The notes beneath the pieces were generated by a model. The model saw nothing but the letters and a program-made list of their open reading frames with translations. It searched no databases and was not told the DNA's origin. This document shows positions 1-11,449 of a DNA stretch of 11,581 nt, in pieces; positions within the stretch are counted from its first letter, which is position 1, and every line of letters begins with the position of its first letter. The position numbers and the translations under genes were made by a program. Source of the stretch: Hyphomicrobiales bacterium (lineage in GTDB: Bacteria > Pseudomonadota > Alphaproteobacteria > Rhizobiales > JAJFHC01). The DNA lies in the NCBI GenBank assembly GCA_021775835.1, contig JAJFHC010000002.1:1-11581 (forward strand), in the 5' to 3' direction.

Positions 1-175
1 AGATACGGTCGCCTTCGCCGGTCAGAATGGCCACGCGAAGATCGGGATCGTCGCGCAATTCAGCGAACGCTGCACCGAGGTCGCGGCTCATCTCCATGTC
101 AATGGCATTGACCTTCGGCTTGTTGAGCTTGACCTCAAGCACTCCGCCTGCGCGCGTAACCTCAACGTGAGCCAT
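1..175 (-). CDS. Enoyl-CoA hydratase/isomerase (crotonase) family, CaiD-like, N-terminal part
   Basis: This is the first 58 residues of a minus-strand gene whose remainder lies beyond the left edge. The start is well supported: ATG at 175 is preceded by a GAGGGA ribosome binding site (183-188) at 7 nt. The peptide begins MAHVEVTRAGGVLEVKLNKP and continues with KVNAID, then RDDPDLRVAILTGEGD. This is the first beta-alpha unit of crotonase-fold proteins, with the usual N-A-(I/L)-(D/N) stretch and the V-x-I-L-T-G strand before the oxyanion-hole segment. From memory it looks closer to CaiD (crotonobetainyl-CoA hydratase: ANAID, FRDDPQLRVAIITG) than to generic EchA, which would fit the quaternary-amine genes nearby. 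The catalytic glutamates lie outside the window, so the specific reaction is not established. An acryloyl-CoA or general enoyl-CoA hydratase is also possible. Confidence 0.85.
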   Translation of the reverse strand, partial: MAHVEVTRAGGVLEVKLNKPKVNAIDMEMSRDLGAAFAELRDDPDLRVAILTGEGDRI

Positions 176-318
176 GGCACTGTCCCTCATATCAATTGTT
201 CCGGCACGCCACCGACGTAACGACCGCAAGGCGATGATCGGGAAGAACAAGCATGATAGTTTCAATTAAATCGACAGTTGTTGTTCTTTCTCGCCATCAA
301 ATTCACATCCATGCGTTG

Positions 319-470: not shown

Positions 471-1703
471 TTAATCAAGCAGGTCTTCTTCAAAAGGATA
501 GGTGTTGAGCAACTCGTAGCCGTCGTCGGTCACCAACACCTGTTGCTCAAGCTTGACGCCGTCCCGCTCACCAACCGCGCCCATATAGCTTTCGACGCAA
601 ATAACCATGCCCGCTTCAAGCGTGCCGTCGTAAGGGTTGGGCCCGCGAAAACCGTAATTGACGCGCGGATATTCATCACACATGCCGACACCGTGAATGA
701 CGCACGGATAGGCATTTTGTCGATATTCTTCAGGCACAGTCATGGCACGCTCCTGAAACTCCACGAAGGTGATGCCCGGGCGGACGAGTTTCAGGTTATG
801 TTCAATCTCACCATAGGCCAGCCGGTACAGCTCCTTTTGTCGCCGACTGGGTTTGCCGGGCCCGCAAAAGAATGTCCGTGAGATGTCCGCAAAGTAACCG
901 AACGGTCCAACCATATCCGTATCGAATCCGACCAGATCCCCAGCTTCCACCCGTCTTGGGGACGCTTCCTGAACCCATGGATTGATCCGCGGACCCGACG
1001 CCAGCATCCGGCCATCATGCCAGTCACCGTTGTTGGCCAGGTTGGTGTAATTCAACAGCCCCCACAACTGAAGCTCGGTGACACCGGGCCTGAGGGCCTC
1101 CTTGAGTTTGGCAATCCCCAGTTCAGCCACGGCTATCGCCCAGCGCATGCAGGCGATCTCATCGTCGGATTTAATCGTTCGCGCCATCTCCGACACCATC
1201 ACGCCGTCGACCACTTCCAGTCCGCGCTGCAACAGCGCCTGGGTAAGACTCGGATTGACGTACTCGACCGCCACGCGCCGGTTGTCGGATCCGATTTCGT
1301 CCAGAAAGTTGACCACATCGTCTGCCAGCAACCGTGCCCATTCGGAAAGCTCATGCGCGCCGTCAAAATGGGCCAGCGGACGCCCGGGCCGGGCCTCGTC
1401 GGCACCGGGTGGCGGGCCATAAGCGTTGTACATGACGACGGGTCCGTCGAGCGGCACAAACAGGTAGGACGACGGAATGTGCGACTGAAACAAGCCGTAA
1501 GTCCGGTAGTCGACCGCATACCGCAAGCTGATCGGGTTGACGAGAATGCAAAGCGCCGCTCCAGTCTCTTCAAGGCCCGACCTGATGCGGCCGAGGCGAT
1601 ACCCGCGCAAACGGTCGTGATCGACTTCCGGCATCTCCTTGAACTTGCTCAGATTGCTCCAGTCGTCATCAAGGACCAATTGGTCAGGTGTCACATCAGT
1701 CAT
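471..1703 (-). CDS. M24-fold metalloenzyme, DddP-like (creatinase/DMSP-lyase type)
   Basis: A 410-residue protein of the peptidase M24 (pita-bread) fold with a creatinase-type N-terminal domain (about 30-165) and catalytic domain (about 175-400). The start at 1703 has GGAGAA about 10 nt upstream. Putative metal ligands are D261, D263, D273, H337, E371 and E386, in GFDTDMVGPFGYFADISRT, IHGVGMCDEYP, ICVESYMG and KLEQQ. The DTD pair, where ordinary M24 peptidases have one Asp, is characteristic of DddP, the iron-dependent lyase that splits dimethylsulfoniopropionate into DMS and acrylate. Relative to the DddP residues as I recall them (D295, D297, D307, H371, E406, E421; Y366, D377), the offset is constant at 34-35, and Y332 and D343 take the two catalytic positions. 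The gene follows the Rieske oxygenase by 57 nt, probably in one operon. It could be a DMSP lyase, a lyase or hydrolase for another onium compound, or a dipeptidase-like relative. The M24 assignment is firm; the substrate is inferred. Confidence 0.88.
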   Translation of the reverse strand: MTDVTPDQLVLDDDWSNLSKFKEMPEVDHDRLRGYRLGRIRSGLEETGAALCILVNPISLRYAVDYRTYGLFQSHIPSSYLFVPLDGPVVMYNAYGPPPGADEARPGRPLAHFDGAHELSEWARLLADDVVNFLDEIGSDNRRVAVEYVNPSLTQALLQRGLEVVDGVMVSEMARTIKSDDEIACMRWAIAVAELGIAKLKEALRPGVTELQLWGLLNYTNLANNGDWHDGRMLASGPRINPWVQEASPRRVEAGDLVGFDTDMVGPFGYFADISRTFFCGPGKPSRRQKELYRLAYGEIEHNLKLVRPGITFVEFQERAMTVPEEYRQNAYPCVIHGVGMCDEYPRVNYGFRGPNPYDGTLEAGMVICVESYMGAVGERDGVKLEQQVLVTDDGYELLNTYPFEEDLLD

Positions 1704-1760: not shown

Positions 1761-2945
1761 TCAGGCAGAAATGATTTTTTCGACGATCCGGCGGCCAAAC
1801 TGGTGTGTCGGACCTTCCCAGTGAGGCGACAGGCGACCGCCATCATACGCCGGCGACAAACGCCCCTGCTGCAGCAATTCGAGCATGCCCAAATCCTCGC
1901 GGTTAAGGTCGTCCCACATCTTCATAACCGCCTGGCGCTGCTCCCGGTACTCCTCCGACGTCGCGGCATCGCCGATCAGGAAGATGTGCAGTTCCTCGCG
2001 CGTCAGGTCCGGGGCAACCGGATAGGACACCAGCAGTGAAAACTGGTCGGGAAAGACCTCCGCGGCAAAATGGGGAAAGCACAGGAACCACAGTCCGCGA
2101 CTGGCGTCGTCGGCTTCAAGACCCGGATAATGCGGCAGGCCATCGCCCCGGCCCTCCTCCAGTTCAGGGAAGACGTAGTCGTTGTAAAAAACGTGATCGT
2201 CCCACTCGCCAGACCACCTCACGTTCATCGGCGCAAACTTCAGGAGACGGGGATGGACGGCAAACACGTGGTAGCCCTCCATGTAGTTTTCATAGACCAG
2301 TTTCCAGTTGGCCTTCACCTCGAAGTCGAGCTTGCCGGCCCAGCGGATCGTGGAAAAATCATAAGCGCTGGTTCGCCGCCTCAGGGGCTCAAGCCAGTCG
2401 TCCAGCGGCTCCGCGTCGCCCGAGACATTCACGAAGATGCAGCCATTCCAGATTTCCACCCGCACAGGCAAAAGGTCGAGCTTATCGCCACCGCCATTGT
2501 CAAAACGATCCAGTTTGTCGGGGCCTGAAAAATGCGGTCGTGACCGCAGCTTGCCGTCGAGCCCGTAGTTCCAGGCGTGGTAGGGACACGTGAACGATGA
2601 TTTCCGGCAGGCCTGGGTGACGAGTTTTGTGCCCCTGTGGCGGCAGACATTGTGGAGACCGTGCACCTGGCCCTCGCGCCCCCGGACGATCACAAGCGGC
2701 GCGCCACCGATCTCGATCGGCTTCATGTCGCCGGTCTCCGGGATCTCGGCCTCGGCACCGGCAAAAACCCAGGATCGTCTGAACACCCGCTCCTGTTCAA
2801 GTGCTAGCCAGTCCTGAGACCAGTAAGCGGTGTTGGGCAGCCCCGAAGCGTCCTCGATTGGCGCAAACGCCTGAGAATAGCCATCCTCGCCCAGGAGTGT
2901 CTTCACCCTGGCAAGGGCATTGGAGTCGGTTGCGGGACTGTCCAT
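1761..2945 (-). CDS. Rieske non-heme iron oxygenase alpha subunit, quaternary-amine demethylase type
   Basis: A 394-residue aromatic-ring-hydroxylating-type oxygenase. The Rieske [2Fe-2S] site is C101-x-H103 ... C120-x-x-H123 (VCRHRG, TCPYHAW). The mononuclear iron site lies in NWKLVYENYMEGYHVFAVH: H226 and H231, with D351 (NREDLGM) as likely third ligand. The residue bridging the two centres is Glu (E223, in YMEGYH) rather than the Asp of naphthalene-dioxygenase-type enzymes. Glu there is known for carnitine oxygenase CntA and related betaine demethylases (GbcA, stachydrine demethylase), so oxidative N-demethylation or C-N cleavage of a quaternary amine is the best guess. Such enzymes need a ferredoxin-type reductase, absent here. 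The frame stays open to 3107, but that overlaps the divergent regulator. In-frame ATGs exist at 2990 (409 residues, acidic EPDDDDNE extension) and 2945; I prefer 2945 because the probable -10 is at 3001-3006. Neither has a good ribosome binding site. Confidence 0.92.
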   Translation of the reverse strand: MDSPATDSNALARVKTLLGEDGYSQAFAPIEDASGLPNTAYWSQDWLALEQERVFRRSWVFAGAEAEIPETGDMKPIEIGGAPLVIVRGREGQVHGLHNVCRHRGTKLVTQACRKSSFTCPYHAWNYGLDGKLRSRPHFSGPDKLDRFDNGGGDKLDLLPVRVEIWNGCIFVNVSGDAEPLDDWLEPLRRRTSAYDFSTIRWAGKLDFEVKANWKLVYENYMEGYHVFAVHPRLLKFAPMNVRWSGEWDDHVFYNDYVFPELEEGRGDGLPHYPGLEADDASRGLWFLCFPHFAAEVFPDQFSLLVSYPVAPDLTREELHIFLIGDAATSEEYREQRQAVMKMWDDLNREDLGMLELLQQGRLSPAYDGGRLSPHWEGPTHQFGRRIVEKIISA

Positions 2946-3000
2946 CAATTCGTTGTCGTCGTCATCGGGTTCCAAACGCCAAGATTGCATCTTTATGAAA

Positions 3001-3031
3001 ATTATGTCATCAAAATTTTCATGACAATCAA
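3001..3031 (-). promoter_or_regulatory. Candidate promoter for the Rieske-M24 operon
   Basis: Read on the minus strand, CATAAT (3001-3006) resembles a -10 box. Possible -35 boxes are TTGATT (3026-3031, 19-bp spacer) or TTGTCA (3022-3027, 15-bp spacer). Both spacers are off the optimal 17 bp, as is common for promoters that depend on or are blocked by a bound regulator. The spacer is filled by the palindrome at 3005-3026. This is prediction by eye only. Confidence 0.35.
3005..3026. promoter_or_regulatory. Near-perfect palindromic operator candidate in the divergent region
   Basis: A 22-bp palindrome with half-sites TGTCATCAAAA and TTTTCATGACA; only positions 7 and 16 (C/C) break the symmetry, so 20 of 22 positions match. 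A second, overlapping inverted repeat, ATGAAAATT (2995-3003) with AATTTTCAT (3014-3022), extends the site leftward. It lies between two divergent operons, inside the candidate Rieske promoter, and covers the ATG of the XRE-cupin gene (3021). XRE-cupin regulators bind short symmetric sites near their own gene, so autoregulation plus control of the Rieske arm is the natural reading. The AT-rich composition stands out from the GC-rich surroundings. Confidence 0.6.
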
Positions 3032-3644
3032 CAAACACAAGAAAACAGATACTCCGGACCAACCTCTGCAACTCGGCGAAGAGCTGCGCTCCCTGCGCAA
3101 GGCCCATGGCCTGACCCTCAAGGGACTGGCCGAAAAATCAGGAAAATCCGTCAGTTTCCTGTCCAAGATCGAGCGTGGTCAGGCAAGGCCGTCGATTACG
3201 GCACTTCAGGACATCGCCGAAGCGCTCAATGTGCAAATCGGCTGGTTCTTCCAGACCGACGGGCCCGTGCCCGCGGACGAGAAACCCTACATCGTGCGCG
3301 CCAACCGGCGTCGGCGGCTGACGTATTCCAGCATGACGTCGACAGACTACATGGGCTTCGAGGACCATCTTCTATCGGCGAACCTCGACGGTCAGCTTGC
3401 CATGGGCATTTCGCACTACCAACCGGGCGGAACTGCAGGCGACGACCTCTACACCCACCAGGGGGAGGAAGCCGGACTGATTCTTGAAGGGGAGATCGAA
3501 CTGGTGCTCGACGTCAGCGTATTCCTGCTCAAAGCCGGTGACAGTTTTTCGTTCCCGGCAAGCATTCCCCACACCTATCGCAACCCCGGCGAAACCGTGG
3601 CCGCGATCGTCTGGGCCAATACGCCTGTCACGCTGAGGCGGTAG
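3021..3644 (+). CDS. XRE-family transcriptional regulator with C-terminal cupin sensor domain
   Basis: A 207-residue regulator. Residues about 17-72 form a Cro/C1-type helix-turn-helix (LGEELRSLRKAHGLTLKGLA ... SFLSKIERGQARPS ... LQDIAEAL). After a linker, residues about 125-202 form a small cupin barrel (THQGEEAGLILEGEIELVLD ... AGDSFSFPASIPHTYRNPG), the usual effector-binding domain of the PuuR/ClrR-like class that controls amine, polyamine and amino-acid catabolism. ATG 3021 is chosen over the in-frame TTG at 2985 because the extra residues do not resemble the family. It lacks a clear ribosome binding site and overlaps the palindrome, so the mRNA may be leaderless or very short-leadered. 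The gene is first in a plus-strand operon, 26 nt before the flavoprotein, and divergent from the Rieske gene. The effector is probably the pathway substrate or an intermediate (inference). Confidence 0.92.
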   Translation: MTINKHKKTDTPDQPLQLGEELRSLRKAHGLTLKGLAEKSGKSVSFLSKIERGQARPSITALQDIAEALNVQIGWFFQTDGPVPADEKPYIVRANRRRRLTYSSMTSTDYMGFEDHLLSANLDGQLAMGISHYQPGGTAGDDLYTHQGEEAGLILEGEIELVLDVSVFLLKAGDSFSFPASIPHTYRNPGETVAAIVWANTPVTLRR

Positions 3645-3670: not shown

Positions 3671-6088
3671 ATGCGAAGCCATGCCCGCGTCGCCGTAATC
3701 GGCGGCGGCAACATGGGAGCCGCCGTTCTCTATCATTTGGCCCACGCCGGCTGGACCGACTGCCTGCTGGTCGAAAAAGCGGAACTGACGTCCGGCGCCA
3801 CATGGCATGCCGCCGGTCTTGTCAGCCGGATGACGGGGTCACAGTCGCTTGGCCGTGTCCACGACCATGCCGTCGATCTTTACAAGCGACTGGAAGAAGA
3901 AACCGGTCAAAGCGTCAGCTGGCACAATTGCGGTTCCATGCGTGTCGCTTCGAGTGCTGACCACCGTGACTGGCTGCTGCACACCCGCGACGGGGTCATG
4001 GCCAGGGGACAGGAATGTCACTGGATCGGCCCCGCAGAAGTGAAGCAACTCAACCCGCTACTGGACACCTCTGACATCACAGGCGCCATTCATACACCGG
4101 ACGACGGCCATGTGGATCCTTCCGGCACATGCCAAGCTATGGCGAAAGGCGCGCGCCAACTGGGGGCGGAAATCGTTCGCCATAACCGCGTCACCGACGT
4201 CACCCAGCGCCCCTCCGGAGAATGGGAAGTTGTCACCGAACACGGCACCGTTGTTGCAGAACACGTGGTCAACGCCGGCGGCTATCACGCCCGCCAGATC
4301 GGCGCCTTCTGTGGCCTAGACCTTCCCATCGTGCCGATGCAGCACCACTACGCCATAACCGACACAGTGCCTGAGTTCGCTGCCATGGAGCATGAGATCC
4401 CGGTCACCCGCGATGATTACTTCACCGGATATCTGCGACGGGAACAAAGTGGCGCACTGATCGGGCTCTACGACACTCACGATGCGCTGGCAAAATGGCG
4501 CGATGGCTGCCCCTGGGACTCGGAAAACGAACTCTTCGAGCCTGATTATGAGCGCATCACGCCCTGGCTCGAGAAGTGTTTCCATCGCTTTCCAGGTCTT
4601 GAGAACCTCGGCCTCAAGCGCATCGTCAATGGTGCCATAACCTACACGCCCGACGGTGCACCCTTGGTTGGTCCGGCTCCGGGGTTGCGCAACTACTGGC
4701 TGGCCTGTGGCGCCACTGTCGGCATTGCCTGGGGTCCGGGAATGGGCAAGTACCTGGCGCAATGGATTATCCACGGCACCGCGGACATCTCCATGCGCGG
4801 CTTCGATCCGCGCCGTTTTGGCAAGTGGGCCACGATCGACTACGCCCATGACCGGTCACGTGAAGACTACATGACCCGCCTGTTGCTTCATTACCCGCAG
4901 GATCAGTATGAGACCCACCGCAACATCCGGACGTCGGGTGCACGTAACCGCACCCAAAGCCTGGGCGCAATCTACGAAGAAGCCGGCGGCTGGGAACGTC
5001 CCCGTCTCTATGGTCCCCAACATTGGCAGGGCCGCGAGCCCAGAACCTGGCAACGGTCACCGTCCCACGAACTCGCGACGGCAGAAGCAATCGGGGTAAG
5101 CCAGAGTGTCGGCATCGGCGACTTTTCCGCATTCGCAAAGTTCGAGATAACCGGTCCTGACGCTGAAAACTATCTCAACCGCCTATGCGCCAACCGCATG
5201 CCGCGCAATTCCGGCGGCACGTGCCTGACGCTCCTCCTCAACCGTCAAGGCACGATCGAAGGCGAAGCGACAATTGCCCGGCTGGGGCCGAACCGGTTCT
5301 GGTTCGTGACCGGTGGACCATCGGAACGGCGCGTCTGGGACTGGATGACGGTCCATCAACGCGGCACCGAGGATATGTCCATCATCAACCGTTCCGACGA
5401 GATCGGCATTCTCACAATCGCCGGTCCGAAATCCCGCGCTGTTCTCGGCGGCTGTACATCGTCGGATCTTTCCAACAGCGCATTCCCCTGGCTGCAGTCG
5501 CGCGAGATTGCAATTGCCGGCATCGACGTAACCGCCTTGCGTCTGTCCTTCACCGGAGAACTTGCCTGGGAGTTGCACGCGCCCAACGCACATCTCGGCA
5601 CGCTCTGGGATGCCCTATGGCAGGCCGGCGAGCCACACGGCATCAAACCCTTCGGCTCCATAGCCCTGGATATGATGCGTATGGAGAAGGCCTATCGCGG
5701 CGGCCATGAACTCGCCAACGACGCAAGTCCCGTCCACACGGATCAGATGCGTTTCGTCAAGCTCGACAAGGATTTCGTAGGCCGCGATGCCGTGGCCAAA
5801 CGAGCGGCCAACGGCGAGCGTTCAATGATCGCCTACCTTGAGATTGAACCTGGCGGTCGCGATGCTCTGGGCGGTGAAGCCGTCTACCGCGATGGTCGTC
5901 TGGTCGGGTCGGTCTCATCTTGTGCGATCGGTCCCACCTCCGGCAAGCATCTTGCTTTTGCTTTTGTAGAACCTTCGTCCGCCACCTCCGGCACGCCTCT
6001 CGAGGTTTGTGTCCACGGCGAAATGTGCAAGGCACAGGTCCTGGCAGAAGCTGTCCGCGACCCTGAAAACTTGAGGTTGAAACGTTAG
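3671..6088 (+). CDS. FAD-dependent oxidoreductase fused to GcvT domains (dimethylglycine/sarcosine dehydrogenase-like)
   Basis: An 805-residue two-part protein. The N-terminal half (about 6-370) is a DAO-type FAD domain with the GGGNMG dinucleotide loop at 11-16 and SGATWHAAGLV at 41-51; H46 sits where this family attaches FAD covalently. It ends with TPDGAPLVGP and GIAWGPGMGKYLAQW. A short linker domain precedes the GcvT aminomethyltransferase half (about 430-800), with SFTGELAWELHAP near 625-637 and RMEKAYRGGHEL. Relatives (dimethylglycine and sarcosine dehydrogenases, other N-methyl dehydrogenases) oxidise an N-methyl group and pass the carbon to tetrahydrofolate. Length is usual for single-chain members. 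GGGAG lies 7 nt before the ATG. The gene is 16 nt upstream of the enolase-superfamily gene. Given the Rieske neighbour, it likely removes the second and/or third methyl of a betaine. The family is certain; the particular amine is not. Confidence 0.93.
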   Translation: MRSHARVAVIGGGNMGAAVLYHLAHAGWTDCLLVEKAELTSGATWHAAGLVSRMTGSQSLGRVHDHAVDLYKRLEEETGQSVSWHNCGSMRVASSADHRDWLLHTRDGVMARGQECHWIGPAEVKQLNPLLDTSDITGAIHTPDDGHVDPSGTCQAMAKGARQLGAEIVRHNRVTDVTQRPSGEWEVVTEHGTVVAEHVVNAGGYHARQIGAFCGLDLPIVPMQHHYAITDTVPEFAAMEHEIPVTRDDYFTGYLRREQSGALIGLYDTHDALAKWRDGCPWDSENELFEPDYERITPWLEKCFHRFPGLENLGLKRIVNGAITYTPDGAPLVGPAPGLRNYWLACGATVGIAWGPGMGKYLAQWIIHGTADISMRGFDPRRFGKWATIDYAHDRSREDYMTRLLLHYPQDQYETHRNIRTSGARNRTQSLGAIYEEAGGWERPRLYGPQHWQGREPRTWQRSPSHELATAEAIGVSQSVGIGDFSAFAKFEITGPDAENYLNRLCANRMPRNSGGTCLTLLLNRQGTIEGEATIARLGPNRFWFVTGGPSERRVWDWMTVHQRGTEDMSIINRSDEIGILTIAGPKSRAVLGGCTSSDLSNSAFPWLQSREIAIAGIDVTALRLSFTGELAWELHAPNAHLGTLWDALWQAGEPHGIKPFGSIALDMMRMEKAYRGGHELANDASPVHTDQMRFVKLDKDFVGRDAVAKRAANGERSMIAYLEIEPGGRDALGGEAVYRDGRLVGSVSSCAIGPTSGKHLAFAFVEPSSATSGTPLEVCVHGEMCKAQVLAEAVRDPENLRLKR

Positions 6089-6104
6089 TCTCCGGAGAAC
6101 GTCC

Positions 6105-7226
6105 ATGAAGATCACACGGATATCCGTCTACCGAACCGAACTGCCTTACGTTGGTGGCGAATATCGGTGGGGGGCGGGCAATGTTATATCGATTGCGCAA
6201 TCCACGATCGTCACGATCGACACCGATGCCGGAATTTCCGGTTGTGGTGAGTTCTGCCCCTGTGGCGAGAACTACATGATTGCCCACAGCGAGGGCGTCG
6301 AAGCGGCCGCCAGGCTCCTCGCACCGGTTCTTCTCGGACAGGACCCTCGCCAACTGTCCCGGATCGAACGGTTGATGGACAAGACGGTGGACGGCCACGG
6401 ATATTCCAAGGCACCGTTCGACGCTGCCTGCTGGGATATCCTGGGCAAGGCGTCAGTCCTGCCCGTCCACACGTTGATGGGCGGCAAACTGATCGACGGT
6501 TGCCCGATGTACCGGGTGGTCCCGCAGAAACCAAGAGCAGAAGCCGCAAAGGAAATGGGGGCTCACCGCAAGGCCGGTTACCGCCAGTTCCAGATCAAGG
6601 TCGGCAATGACTGGAAAGCCGACGTCGAGAGCATCAAGGCCGCCGCATCCCTTTTACAGGAAGGCGAATCTGCTTTCGCCGACGCCAACCGAGGTTGGAC
6701 CGTCAACGATGCGGTCAAGGTGGTTCACGCCGTTCGCGACACCGGCATCATGATCGAACAGCCGTGCCGAACCTACGAGCAATGCCTCCACGTGCGGGCC
6801 CGCACCGACCTTCCCATGAAACTCGACGAGGTCGTCACCGAACTGGCGGTCGCGGAACGCATCGTGGCCGACCGGGCGGCAGAGGTCGTGTGCCTCAAGA
6901 TTTCCAACCTGGGAGGATTGTCCAAGGCACGGCGAGTTCGAGACTATCTTGTTGCCCACGGGCTCTCGGTAGTCTCAGAAGATACCTGGGGTGGTGAGAT
7001 CACAACGGCCGCGCTGTCCCACCTGGCGGCATCGACACCGCCGGAGTTTCTCTACAACACGTCCGATCTGCACAATTACAATACCGCCCATACAGGGCAC
7101 CCCGGGCCTCGGACCGACGACGGAAAGTTGTTCGCCCCCGATACGCCCGGGTTAGGGGTGGAGCCGGACTTCGACAGTCTTGGGGACCCTGTTGCTGTCT
7201 ATGAAATGTTGTCGGAAACAATCTGA
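6105..7226 (+). CDS. Enolase-superfamily enzyme, HpbD / cis-3-hydroxyproline-dehydratase-like
   Basis: A 373-residue mandelate racemase/muconate lactonizing-type protein of typical length, with capping domain (1-125) and TIM-barrel domain (126-345). Putative Mg ligands are D193 (ADANRGW), E218 (MIEQPC) and D241 (KLDEVV). The two lysine bases are K165 (QFQIKVG) and K265 (CLKISNLGG), followed by EDTWGGE. Two lysines on opposite barrel faces allow 1,1-proton transfer. Q-I-K in place of K-x-K, and the TWGGE segment, recall 4-hydroxyproline-betaine 2-epimerase HpbD and cis-3-hydroxy-L-proline dehydratases. The Cys-rich loop ECPC-like FCPCGENY (50-57) belongs to the 20s/50s-type specificity loops. 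CGGAGAA precedes the ATG at about 7 nt. Position right after a demethylating flavoprotein supports epimerisation or dehydration of a proline-type betaine or its demethylated product. The exact substrate is unknown. Confidence 0.88.
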   Translation: MKITRISVYRTELPYVGGEYRWGAGNVISIAQSTIVTIDTDAGISGCGEFCPCGENYMIAHSEGVEAAARLLAPVLLGQDPRQLSRIERLMDKTVDGHGYSKAPFDAACWDILGKASVLPVHTLMGGKLIDGCPMYRVVPQKPRAEAAKEMGAHRKAGYRQFQIKVGNDWKADVESIKAAASLLQEGESAFADANRGWTVNDAVKVVHAVRDTGIMIEQPCRTYEQCLHVRARTDLPMKLDEVVTELAVAERIVADRAAEVVCLKISNLGGLSKARRVRDYLVAHGLSVVSEDTWGGEITTAALSHLAASTPPEFLYNTSDLHNYNTAHTGHPGPRTDDGKLFAPDTPGLGVEPDFDSLGDPVAVYEMLSETI

Positions 7227-7243
7227 TCGGATATCCAGTCCGG

Positions 7244-7723
7244 ATGGACGAGATCACCACACGATTTGCACGCATCGGCGACGAAACCATCCTGGCCGCC
7301 ATGATCGATGCAATGGACCGCTATTACGGCGATCCCGAGAAACCGCAAGGCGAAACCAGCAATGCTGTCGCCGGTTGGCTGCAAGGAGACGTCAGCGGCA
7401 CACGGTTTGCACTCGCATTAGTTGGAGATGAGCCGGTGGGCTTCGCCTCCGTCGCGGCGGTTTATCCGGGCACGGGCTTGAAGGGCATGCTGTTCCTCAA
7501 AGATGTATTCGTCGCCGAAGAATGGCGTAGTCGGCGGGTCGGGGAACAGATCATGAAGTTTCTGGCTCAATTTTGCCGGCAGCATCGGATTGAGCGGATC
7601 GACTGGACAACGGAGACCGATCAGGCACAACGTTTCTACGAACGGCTGGGCGCCGAAACCCGCCCACAAAAGCGGTCTATGCGGCTCGCTGGCGCAGCGC
7701 TAGCCAATCTCGCAAGCGACTAA
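7244..7723 (+). CDS. GNAT-family N-acetyltransferase
   Basis: A 159-residue GNAT-fold protein. The core strand and acetyl-CoA loop lie at about 84-112 (FLKDVFVAEEWRSRRVGEQI), where R97-R98-V99-G100-E101-Q102 fits the R/Q-x-x-G-x-G/A motif except at the last position. A C-terminal AQRFYERLGAE (128-138) is the usual motif-B tyrosine helix. The N-terminus has acidic and aromatic residues (AMDRYYGDPEKP) that may shape the acceptor site. It starts 17 nt after the enolase-superfamily gene, probably last in the operon, and converges on the M20 gene with a 9-nt gap. The acceptor substrate cannot be inferred; acetylation of a pathway amine or a detoxification role are equally possible. Confidence 0.85.
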   Translation: MDEITTRFARIGDETILAAMIDAMDRYYGDPEKPQGETSNAVAGWLQGDVSGTRFALALVGDEPVGFASVAAVYPGTGLKGMLFLKDVFVAEEWRSRRVGEQIMKFLAQFCRQHRIERIDWTTETDQAQRFYERLGAETRPQKRSMRLAGAALANLASD

Positions 7724-7732
7724 TTTCCGCCG

Positions 7733-9148
7733 TCAGTGCTTTCCAGGCAACTCTTTGTCTCCAAGATCCCAATAGAGACCGGTCATGACCTGCAGTCCGG
7801 AACGGACGATGGGCATCAGCAAATGTTCATCCGGTGCGTGCTGCGAGCACCCGGCATAGGAATGTGGCAGCCATATCGCAGGAAGCCCCAGGAGGTCCGT
7901 GAACAGATCATTGCAGATTGATCCGCCCATGCTGGGAATGACGGCCGGTGTCTCGTTGGTCGTCCGTGTCACTGAAGCCAGTACGTCAAGCACCCAGGGG
8001 TCATCCGGCTCGGTACGTGACGCTCCGAAGCCCGCCGCATTCTCCGCCGGTGGTTGCCGGATTTCGACCATGCCAAAGCCATTGGCGTCAAGATGCCTGC
8101 GCAATGCCGGCAATATTTCCTGCGCATCGGTTCCGGCGAAATAACGTAACTGGCAGTGGGCTCTTGCCGAAGGCGAAATCGCGTTGACCGGGTTGTCCGG
8201 GTTGCCCGACGTCATGGCGAGGACCGCAAAACTGTTCCAGCCATAGACTTTCTCCGCGGGCGTCAAACCCGGTTCGCCCCAGTTCGGATCGATATCGGGT
8301 GCCTCCGGCCCGGCCCTTATCTCCAGGCCGTTAAGGGCAGCCTTTACAGCGTCGCTGGTCTTTGGCGGCAACCAGGCATCGACCAGTATCTGACCCGTTG
8401 GTCCGACTATGGTGGCGATCGCATGGGCCAGTATCGTTGCCGGGTCGGCGATGAGCCCACCCCAGTTCCCTGAGTGATGGGCGCCGTCACGCAACGCCAC
8501 GGCCAGGTCGAAGTTCTCAGCGCCCCGCGCGCCCAGCGATACGGTCACCCGGTCCGGATCAGCGCGGGGGCCGTCGGATGCAATAAAGACGTCGGCCGCG
8601 AAATCGCATCGATTGGACTCAATCACCTCGCGCAGCCCAAGGGATCCGTTCTCTTCGCCCATCTCAATCAGAAACTTTGCGTTGAACCCGAGATTGCCGC
8701 GTTCCTCGAGAACACAATTCAGCGCCGCCAGATTGATGGTGTGCTGTCCCTTGTTGTCGGCAGTACCCCGGCCATAGAGGCGATCACCTTCGCGGGCAAG
8801 GGTCCAGGCACCCGCTCCTTTGCTCCATCGGTCTTCAAGCCCCAGGATAACATCACCATGGCCATATCCCAGGACAGTCAGTGCATCGGGATCTTCGACA
8901 CGGCTTGCCAGGAGAACAGGACACCCAGGCGCAATCGGATTGGGATAGACCTTGCAGTCGAACCCCATTTTCCGAAACAAGGGAACCATCTCCTCATCTA
9001 GATATCGCGCCAGGTCGACGGGCGCCTCCGGCTTCTGGCTTTCCGTTCTGAAGGCAACCCGCCGGCCCAAATCAGCCTCGAACCCGCCCTCGTCCAGATA
9101 GCGTGTGGCCCGGGCGATGGCCCCCGTGCGACTGCCATTTTCTCCCAT
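7733..9148 (-). CDS. M20-family metallopeptidase (dipeptidase/aminoacylase type)
   Basis: A 471-residue zinc-dependent hydrolase with the full M20 signature: H97-x-D99 (GYGHGDV), the bridging D131 (YGRGTADNKGQH), catalytic E165 and ligand E166 (EMGEENGS), D192 (ASDGPR), and a late ligand H437 (SQHAPDEH). An inserted dimerisation (lid) domain spans about 205-360. Length fits the carnosinase/dipeptidase-like branch (around 450-480) rather than shorter aminoacylases. No signal peptide is visible, so it should be cytoplasmic. The start at 9148 is well supported: AGGGAG (9158-9163) lies 9 nt upstream. A candidate promoter, TTGACT (9213-9218) and CGTACT (9190-9195), has a 17-bp spacer on the minus strand. 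It is transcribed towards the GNAT gene and away from the EamA transporter. It probably hydrolyses a dipeptide or N-acyl amino acid; any link to the betaine genes is only positional. Confidence 0.9.
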   Translation of the reverse strand: MGENGSRTGAIARATRYLDEGGFEADLGRRVAFRTESQKPEAPVDLARYLDEEMVPLFRKMGFDCKVYPNPIAPGCPVLLASRVEDPDALTVLGYGHGDVILGLEDRWSKGAGAWTLAREGDRLYGRGTADNKGQHTINLAALNCVLEERGNLGFNAKFLIEMGEENGSLGLREVIESNRCDFAADVFIASDGPRADPDRVTVSLGARGAENFDLAVALRDGAHHSGNWGGLIADPATILAHAIATIVGPTGQILVDAWLPPKTSDAVKAALNGLEIRAGPEAPDIDPNWGEPGLTPAEKVYGWNSFAVLAMTSGNPDNPVNAISPSARAHCQLRYFAGTDAQEILPALRRHLDANGFGMVEIRQPPAENAAGFGASRTEPDDPWVLDVLASVTRTTNETPAVIPSMGGSICNDLFTDLLGLPAIWLPHSYAGCSQHAPDEHLLMPIVRSGLQVMTGLYWDLGDKELPGKH

Positions 9149-10345: not shown

Positions 10346-11449
10346 ATGAAAATCAAGTCGATCGAAACATTCGCCAACGAGTTTGTCGGTTTTGTCCGCG
10401 TGACATCCGATGACGGATCACAGGGTTGGGGTCAGGTGTCCACGTACAATTCCGATATATCCGCGACGGTCCTGCACCGCCAGGTTGCCTCCTGGGCCCT
10501 GGGCGAAAACGCTTATGATATTGACCATCTGATGGACGTTGTCCCCGAACGTGAGCACAAGTTTCCCGGCTCTTACCTGCGCCGCGCCATGGGTGGTCTC
10601 GACACCGCGCTGTGGGATCTCCGGGGTAAGGTTGAAGGCAAGAGCGTCTGTGAACTTCTGGGAGGGACGCCCGGGACAATCAGAGCCTATGCCTCCTCCA
10701 TGAAACGCGATATCTCGGCGACCGACGAAGCCGACCGCCTTGTCAGGTTGCGCGACAGGTTCGGCTTCGACGCTTTCAAATGGCGGGTCGCCGCAGAATG
10801 TGGTCACGATATCGACGAATGGCCTGGACGCACGGAGGAAATCGTACCAACAGTATCAAAAGCCTTGGGCGACGACGTAGCGAAACTGGTTGACGGCAAC
10901 AGCGGCTTCTCGCCGAAACGCGCCATCGAAGTCGGCCGTCTGCTCGAAGACAATGGTATCGGTCATTTCGAGGAGCCCTGCCCCTATTGGGAGTTGGAGC
11001 AGACCAAACAGGTAACCGATGCGCTCTCCATCGACGTGACCGGCGGTGAACAGGACTGTGATCTGACGGTCTGGCGACGCATGATTGAGATGCGGGCGGT
11101 CGACATAATCCAGCCCGACGTTTGTTATATCGGTGGCATCAACAGGTTGATGCGGGTGGCGAAAATGGCTGAAGAAGCCGGCCTGCCCTGCACGCCTCAC
11201 TGCGCCAACCATTCTCTCGTAACGCTTTTCACCATGCACGTGCTGCGGGCCATCCCAAATGCGGGCAAGTATCTGGAATTCTCAATCGAAGGGCCGGACT
11301 ACTATCCCTGGCAGGAAGGCCTTTACGTCAAGTCGCCCTACGACATCGTCGACGGCAAGGCCACCGTCACAGGTGAACCGGGTTGGGGCGTCGAGATTAG
11401 CCCTGAATGGCTGGCGAAATCCGAGTATGCTATCAGCGACCTGGAGTGA
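10346..11449 (+). CDS. Enolase-superfamily protein, mandelate-racemase subgroup (probable dehydratase or racemase)
   Basis: A 367-residue protein with a capping domain (about 1-115) and TIM barrel. Putative metal ligands are D183 (LVDGNSGFS), E209 (HFEEPCP) and E235 (TGGEQD). K145-x-R147 (FKWRVA) on the second strand and the H285/D258 dyad (TPHCANHS, IIQPDVCYIGG) mark the mandelate-racemase subgroup, which uses His-Asp as general base and mostly dehydrates acid sugars or racemises hydroxy acids. This differs from the first enolase-superfamily protein in the window, which uses two lysines. The C-terminus (EFSIEGPDYYPWQEGL) closes the active site. The gene is separated from the transporter by 110 nt and converges on the partial minus-strand reading frame. 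No specific substrate is recognisable. Confidence 0.88.
   Translation: MKIKSIETFANEFVGFVRVTSDDGSQGWGQVSTYNSDISATVLHRQVASWALGENAYDIDHLMDVVPEREHKFPGSYLRRAMGGLDTALWDLRGKVEGKSVCELLGGTPGTIRAYASSMKRDISATDEADRLVRLRDRFGFDAFKWRVAAECGHDIDEWPGRTEEIVPTVSKALGDDVAKLVDGNSGFSPKRAIEVGRLLEDNGIGHFEEPCPYWELEQTKQVTDALSIDVTGGEQDCDLTVWRRMIEMRAVDIIQPDVCYIGGINRLMRVAKMAEEAGLPCTPHCANHSLVTLFTMHVLRAIPNAGKYLEFSIEGPDYYPWQEGLYVKSPYDIVDGKATVTGEPGWGVEISPEWLAKSEYAISDLE

Follow-up and report, generated by a model that had tools for sequence, protein, structure and literature searches.

A DddP-like M24 protein encoded among quaternary-amine genes is a candidate lyase for a nitrogen betaine

DddP, a marine lyase that forms dimethyl sulfide (DMS) from dimethylsulfoniopropionate (DMSP), is reported to account for approximately 65% of the ddd genes in the sea (PMC10686828). 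The metal ligands of RdDddP are D295, D297, D307, H371, E406, and E421, and its putative catalytic residues are Y366 and D377; D297 is the sole ligand named as not conserved in methionine aminopeptidases (PMC4108388). In the proposed reaction, the substrate is bound to metal through its carboxylate, loses a proton from the alpha carbon, and expels the beta sulfonium (PMC4108388, PMC5395565), with the DMSP sulfur bound by one Trp and one Tyr (reviewed in PMC5395565). Here, we describe a relative of DddP encoded in an 11,581-nucleotide stretch of DNA from a Hyphomicrobiales bacterium (contig JAJFHC010000002.1), called the window below. Its gene occupies positions 471..1703 of the minus strand (start 1703, end 471) and, from an ATG start, encodes 410 amino acids with a single M24 domain (Pfam match, 110.5 bits). 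The superfamily is already known through DddP, and the clade of the window protein is itself uncharacterised. We found no title or abstract on this clade or its tie to betaine genes in the open literature, a search that left most subscription journals outside, and the word "peptidase" is absent from the main text of a paper on glycine betaine (PMC12478193). Tentatively, we read the protein as a dinuclear-metal, DddP-like enzyme whose main substrate would be, instead of DMSP, a nitrogen betaine or a derivative of one that has been oxidised or has lost some of its methyl groups.

The first evidence is the residue set. A HMMER alignment to the RlDddP structure 4rzy places D261, D263, D273, H337, E371, and E386 of the M24 protein at the metal ligands, and Y332 and D343 at Y366 and D377, with an offset of 34 for six residues and 35 for the two Glu. 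The first-pass annotation of this DNA had listed exactly these residues with an offset of 34 to 35, and the alignment, read with the published assignments (PMC4108388), bears it out. Its remark that ordinary M24 peptidases lack the D-x-D pair holds for the second Asp, D263 (equivalent to D297), and fails for the first, which is not unusual. Seven of the eight residues are kept in 81/81 clade sequences (window included) and D263 in 80, the remaining sequence having an undetermined letter (X) there. Moreover, HMMER gives 251 bits to DddP versus 65 bits to the next solved M24 protein, and the closest solved relatives, by sequence and by the fold of a structural model, are DddP. The likeness of residues and aligned sequence is far beyond chance, and the modelled fold is shared with DddP (RlDddP 4rzy, 4s00, and 4s01; RdDddP 4b28), as are the six ligands with the extra Asp, the equivalents of Tyr366 and Asp377, and the absence of the peptidase histidines.

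The M24 protein differs from DddP in its gene neighbourhood, its clade, its sequence (34% identity to the DddP of locus L081), and one residue of the substrate pocket, as judged from alignments alone. F72 stands at the position of RlDddP Trp95 in the alignment to 4rzy, a replacement that the first-pass annotation does not mention. Across the window clade, this position is Phe in 75/81 sequences, Tyr in four, and Trp in two, and in the DddP core it is Trp in 31/31. We take Trp95 to be the sulfur-binding Trp of DddP, in agreement with the alignment numbering.

Phylogeny also sets the protein apart. We gathered DddP-superfamily genes with the DddP equivalog model, NCBIfam NF043017, from three genome sets. 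All eight genomes reached via window-clade loci had a match (four over the DddP cut-off), as did 32 of 150 genomes of one order at E 1e-40 (seven over the cut-off) and 89 of 149 genomes of one family (86 over the cut-off). The M24 protein itself scores 284.9 bits, under the cut-off of 600. In a quick-search tree of 103 chosen rows without bootstrap, the superfamily is separated from the only two outgroup (other M24) rows by a long branch with a support of 100; as drawn, it is one clade with the extra Asp and W243, both of which the M24 protein has. The window clade (23 rows; SH-aLRT support of 100) shares its part of the tree with two further clades, one without the base Asp and one without D263. 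A different part holds the DddP clade (22 rows; support of 100), which contains 4rzy. Several deep forks lack resolution, and an approximately unbiased (AU) test against joining the window clade and DddP in one clade is marginal (p 0.039). The clade without the base keeps all metal ligands and has Gly for Asp377 in 13/13 rows (L092, L093, L135-L138, L177, L180, L182, L190-L192, and L200), so that another chemistry is expected there. Superfamily copies also cluster: L235 has two (6023-7756 and 11345-12730), which flank a dimethylglycine dehydrogenase (DMGDH)-like gene and follow an MttB-like gene, and L173/L244 has three different copies close together.

The second line of evidence is the neighbourhood. 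In the Rieske oxygenase CntA, the quaternary ammonium is held through a pi-cation interaction by Tyr203, and Glu205 is the bridging Glu (PMC7948474). Directly upstream of the M24 gene, on the same strand, lies the gene for a Rieske oxygenase alpha subunit (1761..2945, minus; open reading frame [ORF] open from 3107, start 2945 likelier), which ends 57 bases before the M24 gene. In its motif ENYMEGYH, the Tyr and the second Glu correspond to CntA Tyr203 and Glu205. The bridging Glu is common to CntA, Stc2, GbcA, and this partner; the Cys pair of CntA is missing (ENYMEGYHV), and the GbcA model gives 167 bits versus a cut-off of 670. The best match of the partner, 3vca, has Asn at the place of CntA Tyr203; 3vca and 4qup are presumably Stc2. 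Among the compared loci, 12 Rieske proteins are at least 58% identical to that of the window (itself included), and all 12 have ENYME[GN]YH (L006 has Asn for Gly); some of these genes do not adjoin the M24 gene. The remaining Rieske matches carry the related motifs ENYSECYH, ENYLECYH, ENFIEPYH, or ENWSECYH, and one has no motif match.

Three genes diverge from the Rieske/M24 pair. A PuuR-like regulator with helix-turn-helix (HTH) and cupin domains (3021..3644, plus; ORF open from 2985, start 3021 likelier) is followed by an 805-residue DMGDH-like FAD oxidase fused to a GcvT folate domain (3671..6088, plus), for which the best Protein Data Bank (PDB) match is DMGDH at 568 bits. Next is an enolase-superfamily gene (6105..7226, plus; best model cis-3-hydroxy-L-proline dehydratase, 425.8 bits, cut-off of 500). 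Between the divergent genes, a 28-bp palindrome (ATGAAAATT ... AATTTTCAT; 2995..3022) is a putative operator. Related palindromes of the form ATGAAAATT...TTTTCAT lie near the HTH-cupin gene at L001 8681, L009 1351, L005 8247, and L003 12492. A search of seven related genomes with up to two mismatches found the palindrome in four, at one place per genome and always at the M24 locus, and the reversed control gave 0 matches. The palindrome is likely the operator of a local regulator.

Similar genes recur across the clade. From the 325 relatives in one scan, we retained the best 80. We then drew 75 loci, window included, with ORFs called so roughly that the M24 gene itself was missed in 6/80 loci. 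A Rieske gene directly precedes the M24 gene in 11/75 loci, and MttB-type methyltransferases, DMGDH, sarcosine-oxidase-like proteins, and enolase-superfamily enzymes are recurrent. In a count with 17 queries, restricted to the 65 of 81 clade loci with at least 8 kb, 42 had one or more genes of the N-demethylase or amine-oxidase type no farther than 8 kb away. L195, L196, and L199 duplicate L004, L005, and L009. The same count gave 9/15 for a mixed W-bearing group and 0/20 for bona fide DddP, whose loci had no match to any of the 17 queries. These control loci may all represent a single syntenic block shared by related species (one locus was inspected), and we therefore place more weight on a test that considers gene densities.

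The densities came from 12 genomes that were chosen for holding superfamily genes and are not independent, and the clade labels were our own. MttB rows under 500 bits (87/128 kept), one FAO_M (DMGDH-type) match under the cut-off (125/126 kept), and superfamily fragments under 200 bits were dropped. On this basis, 6/10 window-clade genes are near FAO_M or MttB genes versus 0.49 expected. The corresponding figures are 14/29 versus 1.61 for all non-DddP superfamily members and 1/7 versus 0.47 for DddP. In two W-bearing clades beside DddP in the tree (L234-L240 and L243), an MttB-type gene is nearby at 6/8 loci, five of which have DMGDH too, and L238 and L243 have neither. Sulfotransferase-like and adenylylsulfate (APS)-kinase-like genes also recur in the M24 cluster (L036, L052, L021, L017, and L058). 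Neighbour clusters c11, c14, and c15 gave no Pfam match at E 1e-4 and no NCBIfam match at the thresholds used, and c11 gave no PDB match.

Three features, the apparatus shared with DddP, the replacement of Trp by a smaller aromatic residue where the onium group would sit, and the quaternary-amine cluster, point to a beta-elimination whose substrate would be a nitrogen onium acid or a derivative. Its separate branch and its position beside genes for breaking down N-methylated compounds make it probable that the protein is a lyase related to DddP that acts on another substrate. We propose that, with the substrate carboxylate bound by the metal pair, D343 would deprotonate the alpha carbon and the beta substituent would be expelled; candidates for this leaving group are tri- or dimethylamine, water, or another group. 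The CntA-type Rieske oxygenase and the DMGDH-like enzyme would take part in handling the substrate, with one regulator controlling the set. We infer the elimination chemistry, the nature of the leaving group, and the control by the regulator. The neighbours fit the first-pass idea that a DddP-like scaffold has turned to a nitrogen betaine as its substrate, and C-N elimination stays a proposal.

Several observations weigh against a single nitrogen-betaine lyase. The gene directly before M24 is of the threonine-aldolase type in 11/75 loci and encodes an AmaA-type oxidase in 7/75, and with such variety, members of the clade may act on different substrates. No N-demethylase or amine-oxidase-type gene is found within 8 kb in 23/65 window-clade loci, and two groups nearer to the window clade have one in only 1/5 and 0/7 loci. 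With up to two mismatches, the search gave no palindrome in three genomes that carry the M24 gene (G001, G004, and G044), so control there must differ. D263 is lost in three rows of the superfamily alignment, and a superfamily that tolerates the loss of this residue or of the base Asp has a scaffold not tied to one reaction. Finally, a trimethylamine-releasing lyase has no obvious need of DMGDH. As to the threonine-aldolase loci, the gene is of the GntG type in all 11 (L024, L026, L028-L030, L032, L038, L041, L044, L055, and L062), with a gene for a major facilitator superfamily transporter nearby in 9/11 and a TauD-like oxygenase in 4/11.

Because DMGDH is no natural partner of such a lyase, a hydrolase in the same operon stays alive as the best of the rival explanations, unlikely as we consider it. 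Such a metal-dependent enzyme would hydrolyse an N-methylated compound at an amide, amidine, or ring C-N bond, with an outcome like that of prolidase, creatinase, or ectoine hydrolase. The M24B Xaa-Pro dipeptidases and aminopeptidases share the pita-bread fold and the five ordinary M24 metal ligands with the M24 protein, which differs in lacking the P-H motif and the second histidine and in having an extra Asp ligand. The P-H motif of the outgroup M24 rows is replaced by W243 and a non-His residue in 81/81 clade sequences (position 244: L 62, C 7, F 3, Y 3, V 2, M 2, I 1, and G 1, with V in the window). The second His, present in outgroup rows L103 and L107, is replaced by Glu344 in all 81. 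DddP is also without both, having Phe and Glu there in 31/31. The missing histidines led us to reject an ordinary peptidase. Creatinase and ectoine hydrolase (DoeA/EutD) have the M24 fold in common and act in nitrogenous-solute catabolism, yet they are only 16-20% identical to the M24 protein in structural alignments, and the DoeA-like outgroup rows L020 and L048 lack most of its metal ligands. Neither is its nearest relative by sequence or fold, and DddP outranks every listed hydrolase in both respects. The placement among aminopeptidases or creatinases with a peptide-type pocket that the first-pass annotation had allowed for was not found: the clade lies inside the DddP superfamily and is without both peptidase histidines.

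Less probable still is a second, divergent lyase of DMSP (or dimethylsulfoxonium propionate [DMSOP]) in a methylated-osmolyte operon, the other half of the first-pass proposal. All DddP metal and proposed catalytic residues are kept, and Phe could still supply a pi contact. Moreover, FgDddP, a confirmed fungal DMSP lyase not among our tree rows, is only 32% identical to RdDddP (PMC4108388), so identity alone excludes nothing, a point that also tells against our preferred reading. Nevertheless, we rejected the protein as a DddP orthologue on its score far under the cut-off, its separate clade (with the marginal AU test), and the replacement of Trp95. Two further points weigh against a DMSP lyase. 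In G002, the genome of the nearest relative, a different gene exceeds the DddP cut-off with 622 bits, and window-clade members occur in Mesorhizobium and Bradyrhizobium, which are mainly soil bacteria. Culturable carriers include Leisingera sp. ANG-Vp (L011) and Mesorhizobium amorphae (L070). That the family is generic and its nearness to betaine genes incidental is very improbable, given the excess over expected densities and a palindrome confined to the M24 locus in four genomes, even though neighbourhoods differ between taxa and the 23 loci noted above have no such gene.

Returning to the nitrogen-betaine reading, a large and well-defined clade that has the whole DddP catalytic set, lies beside nitrogen-betaine genes, and extends to rhizobia hints at a possible origin of DMSP cleavage. 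It is doubtful, though conceivable, that C-N cleavage of quaternary ammonium betaines by DddP chemistry was the older trade of the superfamily, from which the marine DMSP lyase was recruited when the pocket changed slightly, for instance from Phe to Trp. The clade is also a warning against assigning DddP by E-value alone. The M24 protein matches the DddP of L081 with a two-sequence E-value of 2e-82, a value that depends on database size, and the species figure of one review used E below 1e-70 for DddP (PMC5395565). A 40% identity rule (PMC10686828) would exclude it at 34%.

At the left edge, the window cuts the start of a CaiD-like crotonase gene (2..265, minus; 57.8 bits). The closely related locus L001, whose M24 protein is 92% identical, has the whole gene (best model crotonobetainyl-CoA hydratase, 312 bits, cut-off of 500). 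It is followed by genes like those for L-carnitine dehydrogenase (303 bits, cut-off of 414), GbdR (269, 480), and BKACE (257, 382). L001 further has acyl-CoA-dehydrogenase-like and CoA-ligase-like genes, the ligase type having been scanned on a cluster relative in L034. These genes read as a route from butyrobetaine or carnitine to glycine betaine, by analogy, since all scores are under the model cut-offs. The crotonase more likely belongs to this neighbouring module, and the suggestion that it hydrates the product of the M24 enzyme found no support. A medium-chain dehydrogenase/reductase gene was rejected as AcuI (best type PIG3, 140 bits; acrylyl-CoA-reductase YhdH type, 80 bits, cut-off of 297). 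Farther to the right, the window has an M20 peptidase-like gene (7733-9148) and a second enolase-superfamily gene (10346-11449), close copies of which occur among the compared loci only in L001 (85% and 93%).
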